From Puccinia triticina (taxonomy: Eukaryota; Basidiomycota; Pucciniomycetes; Pucciniales; Pucciniaceae): DNA of 64,000 nucleotides. Every line of letters starts with the position of its first letter. Within the stretch, counting starts at the first letter, position 1. This document shows, one piece after another, positions 26,128 through 39,784 of the stretch. The notes beneath the pieces are model-generated. The model saw only the letters and a program-made list of their open reading frames with translations, was not told the origin of the DNA and ran no database searches. The position numbers and the translations under genes were made by a program. Where the stretch lies: the NCBI RefSeq assembly GCF_026914185.1, contig NC_070564.1:6882001-6946000 (forward strand). The letters run 5' to 3'.

Positions 26128-26933
26128 CATACATACGGAAGCCCTGGACCAACACCAATCGCGCCATCGATTTCTGACATCGAATTCGGTTTTGGACTTC
26201 GAGTTTCACTTTTGGTATCCAAATATTTCAGTCGCACTTCCCAAGCCGGCATCTGTACAGATTTTGTAATCACATAACCCAAAACTACAAAACTTCAGGG
26301 TGTTGCCTTTGATCTCATGGGCCTTGATGGCCCGCCTACCATGTCAACCCGCATCGAGGTCAGCTTACGTAGCAGATTTTCATTGGTGGTAGCTGAGTCC
26401 GAGGGCAAAGAGCAAGTTGACCCCTGCAATTGCAGCGCCGAGCTGGTCATCTTTCTGCTCATGGGCTAAGCCCATCTAATGCCAACCCTTAAGGCCCGGC
26501 TTGGGTTGAACAACCACCGTCACCATTGTGTACGGTTGCTTCGCCGAATTGCCGCCAAGGGCGCACCCAGCCAAATATGAAGTCTTGGCAAAAATGGCTG
26601 GTCGCGCACTTGGCACCAATTTGGCACCAACACCCACCACCATGGCTAACCATGTTGGCAGGGGAGTGCCAGTCAAACTGCCCAGCTGATGTAAGGCTTT
26701 TCTGGCTGGATTAGAGCATCATCACTGCAGCCAGGCACTGCTAGTTGTGTATTGCCCCACATCTGCCGGTCCTGGTTCAAAAATCAGGCCATAGGCAGTC
26801 ACATCTACTTGACGCTTGCTTTCACTGCTTTTTACCATTCAACATTGTAATTATCGCTTCGCCACCCAAAATTCTACATCGCTTTGCCACCCAAAATTCT
26901 ACCCCAACTGCCTTCACAGTCTTTTGGAACGCT

Positions 26934-28621
26934 ATGAATGAAGATATCACAACAACCGATTACAGTGAGCATTCTGGAGTTGATGATCCCATATCCCCCA
27001 GCTCGACATCTGGTCCCATACTCCTTTCAGATGATCAGAAGCGCGCAATTGTGGCATCCCTCCTCTCCAAAGGCTTGAAGGGTCCAGATATCCTATCAAT
27101 ACTCAAGGAAGAATATGGCTGTTCAATTCTCCCCCGTACATTCACTCGCCTTCGCCAAAAATGGGGCCTCCGACTCTGTGATCTTCCACCAGCAGAAAGA
27201 AGCCCAGATCTACTACCACCTATTCGCGCAAGCATTATCTCTTCCCATAAAAATGGCTTGACAGTATTAGAAATGCGCTCCCAACTCCGCAGTGAACTAG
27301 GCTTGGTCGTCTGCCCCCGCACCGTTGAGAGATATCTGAGGCGCCTCAAGCTGAAACAACGACAAAACGACCTTGCAGATGGAAAGATAACACGAGAACA
27401 AGTGGTCGAGCTCATCAAACATGCCCGTGATGCTTTACTGGCAAACACTGCAGGCTATAGGAGGATGCGACAGATCTTGGTAACAAACTATGGACTCCAT
27501 ATACCCAGGTACACCTCAAATTCAACTCATTGACCTTAGTTTTTTGAATTCACATGAAGTTTCTCCTTCTCTTCACAGGCAGCTTGTTTATGACATCCTT
27601 AAAGAGGTGGATCCTGAAGGAATCAAAATGCGGCTCAAGAAAACATGCAAAAGGAGAGTTTTCCGATCCACAGGTCCTAATCACATATGGGCCGCTGATG
27701 GCCATGACAAGCTCAAACCTTATGGAATCACGGTGTACGGCTTCATAGACGCATGGTCAAGAAAAATATTGGGCATCTTTGTTCATGTCACAAACAATGA
27801 TCCAAGGCATGTTGGCGCTTACTTCCTTCACTTAGTTAGGTCTCTTGGCGGGATTCCAGAAAAGGTTACGGTTGACAAGGGTACTGAGACAGGAAACATG
27901 GGTGACTTACTCATTCAGCTTTCCCATGAGTTCATTGAAGGTATCACCATTGAACAAGCACAAAAGCGCATACATTACACAAAATCAGTTCATAATCAGA
28001 AAATTGAATCATTGTGGTCGAGAATGATGGCCGAGCACAACAGGCCAATAATAGACTTCATCTTAACCAAAATGGAAACTGGTGGATATGATGATAGTGA
28101 CCCATTGCAAAAGTAAGCTTTGTTTCCAAATTCATATATGGCATTGTTCTACATTGTATCCTCCTGATTGTACATCCTTCAGACTCCTTTTTCTATTTCT
28201 ATGGATTCCAGTTTTTCAGGCTAGTGCTGATAGCTGGGTAAACACCCACAATGCATACCGGAAGCGGCGCGACAACAGGACCTCCCTTCCAACTGCTGTT
28301 CAGCCAATATTTTCTTATTCAAACCCAGAACATTTCCAAACTACAGACCAACTAATCCGAATCCCACCCACAAGAGTTGATGAGCTCCTAGAAGAAAACT
28401 ACCCCAATCTAGACCGCATGTTCACACACACTCCAGCCTTCTTTCACAACATTGCTTTTCCCCTGTTCTGTGAACTAGGATATGATTTTCAAAACTTAGA
28501 AATTGGTAGGGTTTGGAATGTCTTTGATTCTATGCTCCCTAGGCTGCAAGTATATTTTCCCCCACATTTTTTCTCTGACTCCTCTGATGATGGTTCTGAT
28601 TCAGACCAAGATCTGGTGTAG
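26934..28621 (+). CDS. DDE integrase/transposase of the cargo transposon
   Basis: Three exons, 26934-27508, 27579-28112 and 28183-28621, join through GT...AG introns without stops to give 515 residues. Residues about 35-90 form a helix-turn-helix-like domain (LSDDQKRAIVASLL, LPRTFTRLRQKWGLR), with a second HTH-like block to about 145. The catalytic core has WAADGHDK (D232), VTVDKGTETG (D291) and HNQKIESLW (E335), a D-D-43-E arrangement typical of retroviral-integrase-like transposases. The C-terminal part (residues about 370-515) includes WIPVFQ and HNAYRKRRDNRTSLP and ends acidic. It lacks an HHCC finger, RT or chromodomain, so it is not a retroelement integrase. It lies 0.8 kb from the left TIR. 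The reading frame is intact. Family name (IS3EU-like) uncertain; integrase fold confident. Confidence 0.85.
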
Positions 28622-29184
28622 AGGAAGCCCAATTTGATTAGATCCTCAACACATGTTTGTACAAAGTTGTAAAAAAGGCTGTATCCCATTTTCCATTATT
28701 TTCAACTTTTTGATGCTCAGGATTTGGAATCAGTGACACTTGAAGGCATTTATCTTTCAGCATAAGGATTGAGTTAATTTTTTTAAGCTAAACTGCAGGG
28801 TACCTGAGTGAGAAGATAAGTTGCTTCTGTACTCTCTTATTGCACATTTTGAGAGTACCTAGGCCCTATTTTAAAATGAATCTTTGGGCTATGACTGTGT
28901 AGAAGGGGTCAGAGCACTCAACCATCAATAATGCTGGTCCCTAGTCCTTGTCATGTGAAAGAAAATACATTGGGAAGGTGGTATTTTCATGCAGGGATGC
29001 TATTTCCATGCTGCACTTCAAGCAGGTTTGGGATATTGGCATCAGCAGTGGTCTAGCTAGACTAACCATGGTGTTATCCTGGTTTAGAATTGCAAAATTT
29101 CACTAGCACTTTTAATGAAAATAATTAAATAACTGTGTGGGGGGAACTGTTAAATGTGCCATTGGATTAAATGTGCAATCAAAT
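28622..29184. other. Non-coding, between integrase and minisatellite
   Basis: No gene or repeat recognised. It may hold the integrase 3' UTR. Confidence 0.4.
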
Positions 29185-30035
29185 TAACTGTGCCAGAGGC
29201 ACTATCAACTGTGCCGGGGCCCTACTGAACATGCCAGAGCCACTACTAACTGTGCTGGAGGCACTATTAACTGTGCCGGAGGCACTATTAACTGTGCCGG
29301 AGGCACCATTAACTGTGCCGGAGGCACTATTAACTGTGCCGGAGGCACTATTAACTGTGCCGGAGGCACCATTAACTGTGCCAGAGGCACTATTAACTGT
29401 GCCGGAGGCACTATTAACTGTGCTGGAGGCACTATTAACTGTGCTGGAGGCACTATTAACTGTGCTGGAGGCACTATTAACTGTGCTGGAGGCACTATTA
29501 ACTGTGCTGGAGGCACTATTAACTGTGCCGGAGGCACTATTAACTGTGCCGGAGGCACTATTAACTGTGCCGGAGGCACTATTAACTGTGCCGGAGGCAC
29601 TATTAACTGTGCCGGAGGCACTATTAACTGTGCCGGAGGCACTATTAACTGTGCCGGAGGCACTATTAACTGTGCCGGAGGCACTATTAACTGTGCCAGA
29701 GGCACTATTAACTGTGCCGGAGGCACTATTAACTGTGCTGGAGGCACTATTAACTGTGCCGGAGGCACTATTAACTGTGCCAGAGGCACCATTAACTGTG
29801 CTGGAGGCACCATTAACTGTGCCGGATGCACTATTAACTGTGCCGGAGGCACTATTAACTGTGCCGGAGGCACTATTAACTGTGCCGGATGCACTATTAA
29901 CTGTGCCGGAGGCACTATTAACTGTGCCGGAGGCACTATTAACTGTGCCGGAGGCACTATTAACTGTGCTGGAGGCACTATTAACTGTGCTGGAGGCACT
30001 ATTAACTGTGCTGGAGGCACTATTGACTGTGTCCA
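29185..30035. repeat. 21-bp minisatellite array, left (inverted relative to the right array)
   Basis: About 40 tandem units of GGCACTATTAACTGTGCCGGA with few variants. The 21-bp length gives long repeat ORFs in several frames (NSASGTV, EALLTVP), not genes. The outer border segment (ACTGTGCCGGGGCCCTACTG) has a unique inverted partner near 35675 in the right array, so the two arrays are homologous and oppositely oriented. Confidence 0.9.
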
Positions 30036-38485: not shown

Positions 38486-38930
38486 TTCTTCAGCAAGATG
38501 ATATTTTGGTTGAGGGTACGAGATTTGTGATGCAATAGCAATGAGGTATGTGGGGCAATGAAAAAGAAAATTGATAGCGATAAGAAAGTTACTGAAGTGT
38601 GGGTCAACTCTGGCGCAGCTTTTCGGTTATTATATCTGATGGTCCCCTGTTGATTTGGGCTAATGCAATGAAGCTTTGCCTCAATGAATAACTATGCCCA
38701 CTAATTTTTTCTTGCATGTACTATCCTGCCCAGGCTGGGCACAAGTATCATCTCAACAGCCAAGTTACTATCACAATGGTTTGTGTGCCGGTTTATCTGC
38801 ATTGTGGTACACTAAGCAACTAGTTGAAATGGACGGGCCTAAGGGGCTTACAATCACCAATGATGTCTTGACAGCCATCTTCTTGGTTACTGCAGGGGTC
38901 AACTTGCTCTTTGCCCTCGGACTCAGCTAC

Positions 38931-39543
38931 CGCATGACCCCCAGAAGGGCTGGGCTCGTCCATCCGCCGCGGATATTGCCCCTCCGGTGCCCTCCGCCTG
39001 ATCGCCGTCGTGGCTGCACCAAGTCGTCCACGACAAGGCTCTGAATCACGCAGCCATGAGGTCAATCTTGCGCGGCCTCCCTACTAATCCAGACGCCAGA
39101 GTGCCATCCGCCAGGCAGTCTGACCAACGCCTGGATGATCGAGACCCCGATGATCTCGCGACATCCAAAAATGCGTGTAGAAGCCCGCCTAAGAAGATGA
39201 CTCCCCGGCGGAGCCTACCCGCCCAACCGGCGCCCCATGACCGCCTCCGACGCGCGTTTTGCCGGTCGCCCCGGCGCCCGGGCCGGACGCCTACAAGGCA
39301 ACCCCCCAAAACCACCCCCTGGGCGCCCCCTGGAGACGTCACCATAGCGCCCTTGAATCGCGCCCTTCTGGCGCTGGGGTGGTGGCGACGCCATTGGATG
39401 TCGCCTTGGAGGTGTAACCAGGACGCCACAGCTGGGCACCCCCAGGGCGCCCGCCCAGATGCGTTGGGGGGGGCGTGCCGGCCGTGCGGGGCCGCGGGGA
39501 CGCCCTGAGGGGTGTCAACTTGACGTCGACTTTGACCCGCGGT
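38931..39543. mobile_element. GC-rich insert splitting the right TIR arm
   Basis: Homology between the left and right arms of the 13.6-kb element stops at 39543 and resumes at 38930; the left arm has only 19 bp at this place. The 613-bp insert is strikingly GC-rich with many GGCGCC-like motifs, unlike its surroundings. No TIR, LTR or target duplication is obvious. ORFs on both strands reflect few AT-rich stops. Confidence 0.55.
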
Positions 39544-39784
39544 GTAAGCTGACTTCGATGCGGGTTGACATGGTGGGCGGGCCATCAAGGCCCATGAGAT
39601 CGAAGGCAACACCCCGAAGTTTTGTAGTTTCGGGTTATGTGATTACAAAATCTGTACAGATGCCGGCTTGGGAAGTGCGACTGACATATTTGGATACCAA
39701 AAGTGAAACTCGAAGTCCAAAACCGAATTCGATGTCAGAAATCGATGGCGCGATTGGGGTCGGTCCAGGGCTTCCGTACATACA

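Follow-up and report, generated by a model that had tools for sequence, protein, structure and literature searches.

A probable, apparently autonomous TET-carrying IS3EU transposon with a fourth, Helitron-linked gene in the wheat leaf rust fungus Puccinia triticina

A 64,000-nucleotide stretch of the Puccinia triticina genome (hereafter the window) contains four spliced genes, encoding an integrase-like transposase, a small protein termed here gene 2, a TET/JBP-like dioxygenase and an alpha-kinase, that are enclosed by terminal inverted repeats (TIRs). The locus raises the question of whether these genes form a single mobile element and, if so, to which class of transposons it belongs and what the genes other than the transposase contribute. 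An initial sequence-only reading had proposed a 13.6-kb TIR transposon with four spliced genes at 26134..39778 and knew of no described element with this gene set. We conclude with good confidence that the element is an apparently autonomous TET-carrying (TET+) IS3EU DNA transposon of P. triticina with a fourth gene in addition; its genes may have the roles proposed below.

Structure and genomic copies of the element

The TIR element spans 13,645 bp (positions 26134-39778 of the window), and its termini TACGG..CCGTA lie between perfect CATACA repeats. The TIR arms are identical at 227/235 positions (96.6%, E 5e-112; 26134-26368 versus 39778-39544), and a perfect 41-bp block inside the arms pairs 26388-26428 with 38931-38891. 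The gene order is a 3-exon transposase (+), 4-exon gene 2 (-), 2-exon TET (+) and 3-exon alpha-kinase (-). The structure was thus found as originally described, including arms of about 97% identity and the perfect 6-bp target site duplication (TSD) matching at both flanks. The features are as follows.

26128..26133, no strand: left TSD, CATACA (flank read CATACA/TACGG)
26134..26368, + strand: left TIR, 5' start TACGG, from inverted-repeat pairing
26388..26428, + strand: inner inverted block, pairing with 38891-38931 at 41/41 positions
39544..39778, - strand: right TIR, end CCGTA, from inverted-repeat pairing
39779..39784, no strand: right TSD, CATACA (flank read CCGTA/CATACA)
26934..28621, + strand: transposase, 515 amino acids (aa), exons 26934-27508, 27579-28112 and 28183-28621; rva_4 domain with D232, D291 and E335
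30509..31402, - strand: gene 2, 234 aa, exons 31402-31313, 31243-30866, 30809-30657 and 30592-30509; Helitron-associated family, probable oligonucleotide/oligosaccharide-binding (OB) fold
32398..34257, + strand: TET/JBP-like dioxygenase in two exons, 32398-33481 and 33563-34257, with an inferred start codon; it has the HxD motif and the distal H
36557..38485, - strand: alpha-kinase (PF02816), exons 38485-37205, 37145-36868 and 36812-36557
29183..30031, + strand: 21-bp minisatellite, tandem repeat of 40.5 copies
35336..35814, - strand: 21-bp minisatellite of 22.9 copies, unit inverted relative to the array at 29183..30031
32131..32964, + strand: 177-bp repeat, 4.7 copies, encoding the RS-rich N-terminal repeat of the TET protein

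The genome of P. triticina Pt15 (122.8 Mb in 18 contigs, labelled C1-C18; the window is C7:6882001-6946000) was searched with the left TIR, as the sequence-only reading had proposed. Among the 22 matches, three pairs bound full elements, namely the window copy, C8:4823670-4838340 and C2:6062121-6104175, each flanked by its own perfect 6-bp TSD (CATACA, GTTTCG and CCTCAG, respectively). The C8 and C2 copies contain all four genes with 92-100% protein identity per exon to the window copy. The recovery of two more full copies with an identical gene set and separate TSDs bears out the view that the locus is one mobile element. No empty site was found in the same genome with the flanks, because the right flank is unique to the locus and matches only itself, and the left flank (40 matches for 300 bp) is a dispersed repeat.

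No internal stop interrupts any of the 12 exons modelled for the window copy. The earlier reading, which saw three fully intact multi-exon frames, needs one correction: upstream of TET, the 177-bp RS-rich repeat contains an in-frame TGA in the window, and the TET start was therefore placed at the next ATG, at 32398. The TGA-bearing motif, its frame read in the window copy, is also present in the other two full copies. The C8 copy has one stop each in the transposase, gene 2 and the kinase; in the C2 copy, gene 2 has one stop and TET three. Added repeats extend the C2 copy to 42 kb, among them a large array of ~173-bp units in either orientation and two 933-bp direct repeats resembling long terminal repeats (LTRs) that are 99.6% identical. 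At a further, decayed locus (C6:5131297-5156233), the complete set of four genes follows the window order, with 28% identity to the window for TET, 49% for the kinase and 88% for gene 2, a combination of low and high values suggesting that it may be composite.

More diverged relatives were collected by genome searches with exons, which gave at least 99 transposase, at least 124 TET and at least 39 kinase matches; the clustering and locus counts derive from these lower bounds. Of 37 kinase loci, 19 had a transposase locus no more than 25 kb away, compared to 0.5 expected at random. A kinase was present within 45 kb of 25 of the 35 merged transposase loci, and the nearest pair was convergent in 20 (two kinases enter this pair count twice). 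TET lay between the convergent transposase and kinase in 18/20 of these pairs and had the orientation of the transposase in 17/18. At diverged loci, transposase, TET and alpha-kinase have retained their order and orientation as a lasting module, and the earlier assignment of TET and alpha-kinase as genes of an element with an IS3-like integrase is corroborated by the recurrence of this set. Two other arrangements were observed. The loci C12:4826403-4835546 and C15:3884613-3893755 are near-identical (3,612 bp, 99.8%), with kinase and transposase encoded by the same strand, and at C6:6248293-6260351 an inverted duplication places two transposase-TET-kinase sets head to head.

Encoded proteins and placement among known transposons

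The transposase is integrase-like (Pfam PF24764, E 9.8e-18), with a match to rve below the cut-off. Its catalytic residues are conserved among 79 aligned rows (D in 74, D in 72 and E in 69), the second spacing being 43; a sequence search of the PDB gave a ribosomal protein at E 0.2 as its best match. The TET gene encodes a Tet-like 2-oxoglutarate (2OG) oxygenase (Pfam PF20515, E 1.2e-27) with complete HxD...H iron ligands. In an alignment of 21 rows that includes the window itself twice, the H of HxD is present in 21/21, its D in 18/21 and the distal H in 20/21. The ratio of nonsynonymous to synonymous substitution rates (dN/dS), calculated for copies other than the two with stops, was 0.39 and 0.48 for the window TET versus close copies and 0.09, with dS saturated, versus a 65%-identical TET. 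PF20515 has at least 152 matches in the whole genome; most are distant from the transposase loci detected, which places the majority of TET genes elsewhere. The kinase has an alpha-kinase domain (Pfam PF02816, E 1.5e-25), and its PDB match to eEF2 kinase (7shq, E 2.6e-13) has an alignment limited to the C-terminal part.

Placement in IS3EU is supported by the termini, the TSD length and the transposase family. The ends TACGG..CCGTA conform to the TA..TA termini described for IS3EU (PMC10045372), the TSDs are 6 bp in 3/3 full copies, and the transposase combines a PF24764 match above the cut-off with the D, D and E residues. Kojima 2025 (PMC12730594) describes TET+ IS3EU families from seven rust species, P. 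triticina among them, with 6-bp TSDs, TIRs >30 bp, ends TAYGG..CCRTA and, in all of them, TET placed between the transposase and an alpha-kinase of opposite orientation. The belief that no element with this set had been described is thus mistaken, since TET+ IS3EU transposons with an alpha-kinase were already on record in rusts. The window element is like these Pucciniales families in TSD length, ends, host species and TET position; its TIR is 235 bp long and its ends are TACGG..CCGTA. TET in the orientation of the transposase is named for three families in that paper and was found here at 17/18 loci. The element differs in having gene 2, which the text of PMC12730594 accessible to us does not mention; no fourth gene is named there for IS3EU, and the 'third protein' in that text belongs to Harbinger. 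The family itself may already be listed in the supplements of that paper.

The KDZ transposons (Dileera, Kyakuja and Zisupton) are likewise fungal DNA transposons with TET cargo, and the rust Dileera element Zisupton-1_PGr has an 8-bp TSD (both according to PMC12730594). In contrast to the 8-bp TSD of KDZ, the window element has 6-bp TSDs in 3/3 copies and an IS3-like transposase. KDZ membership is excluded on account of the TSDs, which agrees with the initial view that the oxygenase and kinase are carried by an IS3-like integrase element distinct from KDZ. The possibility that the whole element is a Helitron was rejected as well, given the 6-bp TSD and the lack of any Rep or helicase family among its genes; the nearest PIF1 match, among the matches listed, is 235 kb away.

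Gene 2 and the mutation signature of the copies

Gene 2 had no match above the cut-off in Pfam, Pfam RPA families included, and its single PDB match by sequence, RPB7, was non-significant (E 1). Its relatives adjoin Helitron-type PIF1 helicases, with 15 of 31 loci lying within 4 kb of one compared to 0.34 expected (among the matches listed). For two gene-2 structural models (mean predicted local distance difference test score, pLDDT, of 34 and 37), the best Foldseek matches were OB-fold single-stranded DNA (ssDNA)-binding proteins, none of which reaches E 0.001. Together, the models and the genomic neighbours suggest that the family probably has an OB fold, and gene 2 looks like a gene of the single-stranded DNA-binding protein (SSB) type common to Helitrons and the IS3EU family of the window element. 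Helitrons of plants and some animals carry RPA-like genes (PMC4683698), to which a probably OB-fold family beside PIF1 helicases is comparable; unlike them, the window element is bounded by TIRs and encodes a DDE transposase, and gene 2 lacks a Pfam RPA match. In an arbitrarily rooted tree of 11 rows, which gives no direction of transfer, the window copy joins two P. striiformis proteins (100/99).

The three full copies were compared over 7,224 common positions with repeats masked, the right part being largely without C8 alignment, and cytosine contexts were read from the window copy. Of the 54 C>T or G>A changes confined to a single copy, 41 were at CpG, and 28 of these at TCG. Changed sites made up 28/81 of TCG cytosines versus 13/2,834 of non-CpG cytosines. 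This pattern matches the TCG hypermutation reported for Pucciniomycotina repeats, as cited in PMC12730594. Rusts are reported to possess DNMT1 and DNMT5 (PMC12210899). The strong C-to-T bias at TCG suggests that a methylation-linked process, which TET could counter, has probably acted on the copies. The ratio of TCG changes to transversions was 33:18 for the window/C2 pair, 17:4 for a Helitron-type pair and 8:5 for another TET pair, and 0:1 for the C12/C15 pair and 0:2 for a nested direct-repeat pair, both with very few changes; the counts in these five pairs are too small to show either a lowering of TCG mutation by TET or none.

Alternative explanations and biological meaning

Several observations weigh against an active four-gene IS3EU element. 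Each of the other two full copies has stops in two or three of its four genes, and gene 2 is stopped at one common codon in both, so that the element may not need it or may have it provided in trans, unless the shared stop is a parallel hit, which is possible. The copies are hypermutated despite TET, the TET protein has no PDB match by sequence up to E 10, no kinase lies within 45 kb of 10/35 transposase loci, and TET lies outside the transposase-kinase pair in C12/C15. If two unrelated miniature inverted-repeat transposable elements (MITEs) had come to flank host genes in inverted orientation, few full pairs among TIR matches would be no surprise, and only 3/22 matches gave them; this explanation is ruled out to near certainty by three full copies with equal contents and separate perfect TSDs. 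The idea that TET, the kinase and gene 2 were picked up by accident and do nothing for the element is consistent with the identical gene-2 stops and with the TET dN/dS of 0.39-0.48 versus close copies. We regard this as improbable, since transposase, TET and kinase are linked in constant order at diverged loci, the dN/dS versus the more distant TET is low (with saturated dS), and the published families of seven species have an equal arrangement (PMC12730594).

Also against the proposal, the gene-2 models are weak and all Foldseek matches lie above E 0.001. Gene 2 may instead be another small beta-rich transposon protein, for example a regulator, with the OB matches arising from weak models; this has an appreciable though minority chance of being correct, and the low pLDDT, the lack of a Pfam match and the best PDB match at E 1 speak for it. 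Bacterial IS3 elements transpose by a replicative, copy-out route. If gene 2 is an SSB, the IS3EU family could have recruited an ssDNA-binding gene from rust Helitrons, or donated it, DDE and rolling-circle transposons then sharing an anti-silencing enzyme and a replication helper. We consider such an exchange unlikely; under it, the SSB would assist in a replicative copy-out step of the bacterial IS3 kind, or would protect exposed single-stranded DNA against the C-to-T process seen in the copies.

For the preferred TET+ IS3EU element, we infer the following roles from the encoded domains. The DDE transposase would act on the TACGG..CCGTA ends and insert the element at staggered 6-bp targets, and the TET/JBP enzyme would oxidise 5-methylcytosine, so that the element remains expressed. 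An anti-silencing role of transposon TET was also proposed by Kojima 2025 (PMC12730594). The alpha-kinase may phosphorylate a protein, of the host or of the element, on which expression or transposition depends, and gene 2, as an OB-fold protein from a family otherwise mostly associated with Helitron-type helicases, may bind single-stranded DNA during transposition or repair. The two 21-bp minisatellite arrays, which have one common unit in inverted orientation and are found again in the two other full copies, could be transposase-binding or structural sites.

Further observations concern the element ends. The right arm only has ~0.6 kb extra (38932-39543), apparently G+C-rich, and likewise in the C2 copy. 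In the left flank, 25632-25915 consists of 80-87-bp repeats of a dispersed family, a match of which lies ~2 kb from a gene-2 relative at four places (C3, C12, C13 and C18).

To the known class this analysis adds gene 2, linked to Helitrons, as well as the TCG signature found in the copies and the counts of gene order. The core finding confirms, in a chromosome-scale rust genome, that transposase, TET and alpha-kinase are a lasting module. The C-to-T signature at TCG in copies of a TET-bearing element offers a way to measure the proposed action of transposon TETs against methylation-linked hypermutation. Finally, a gene family that the element has in common with Helitrons, probably SSB-like, suggests that the exchange of helper genes among rust transposon classes extends beyond TET.
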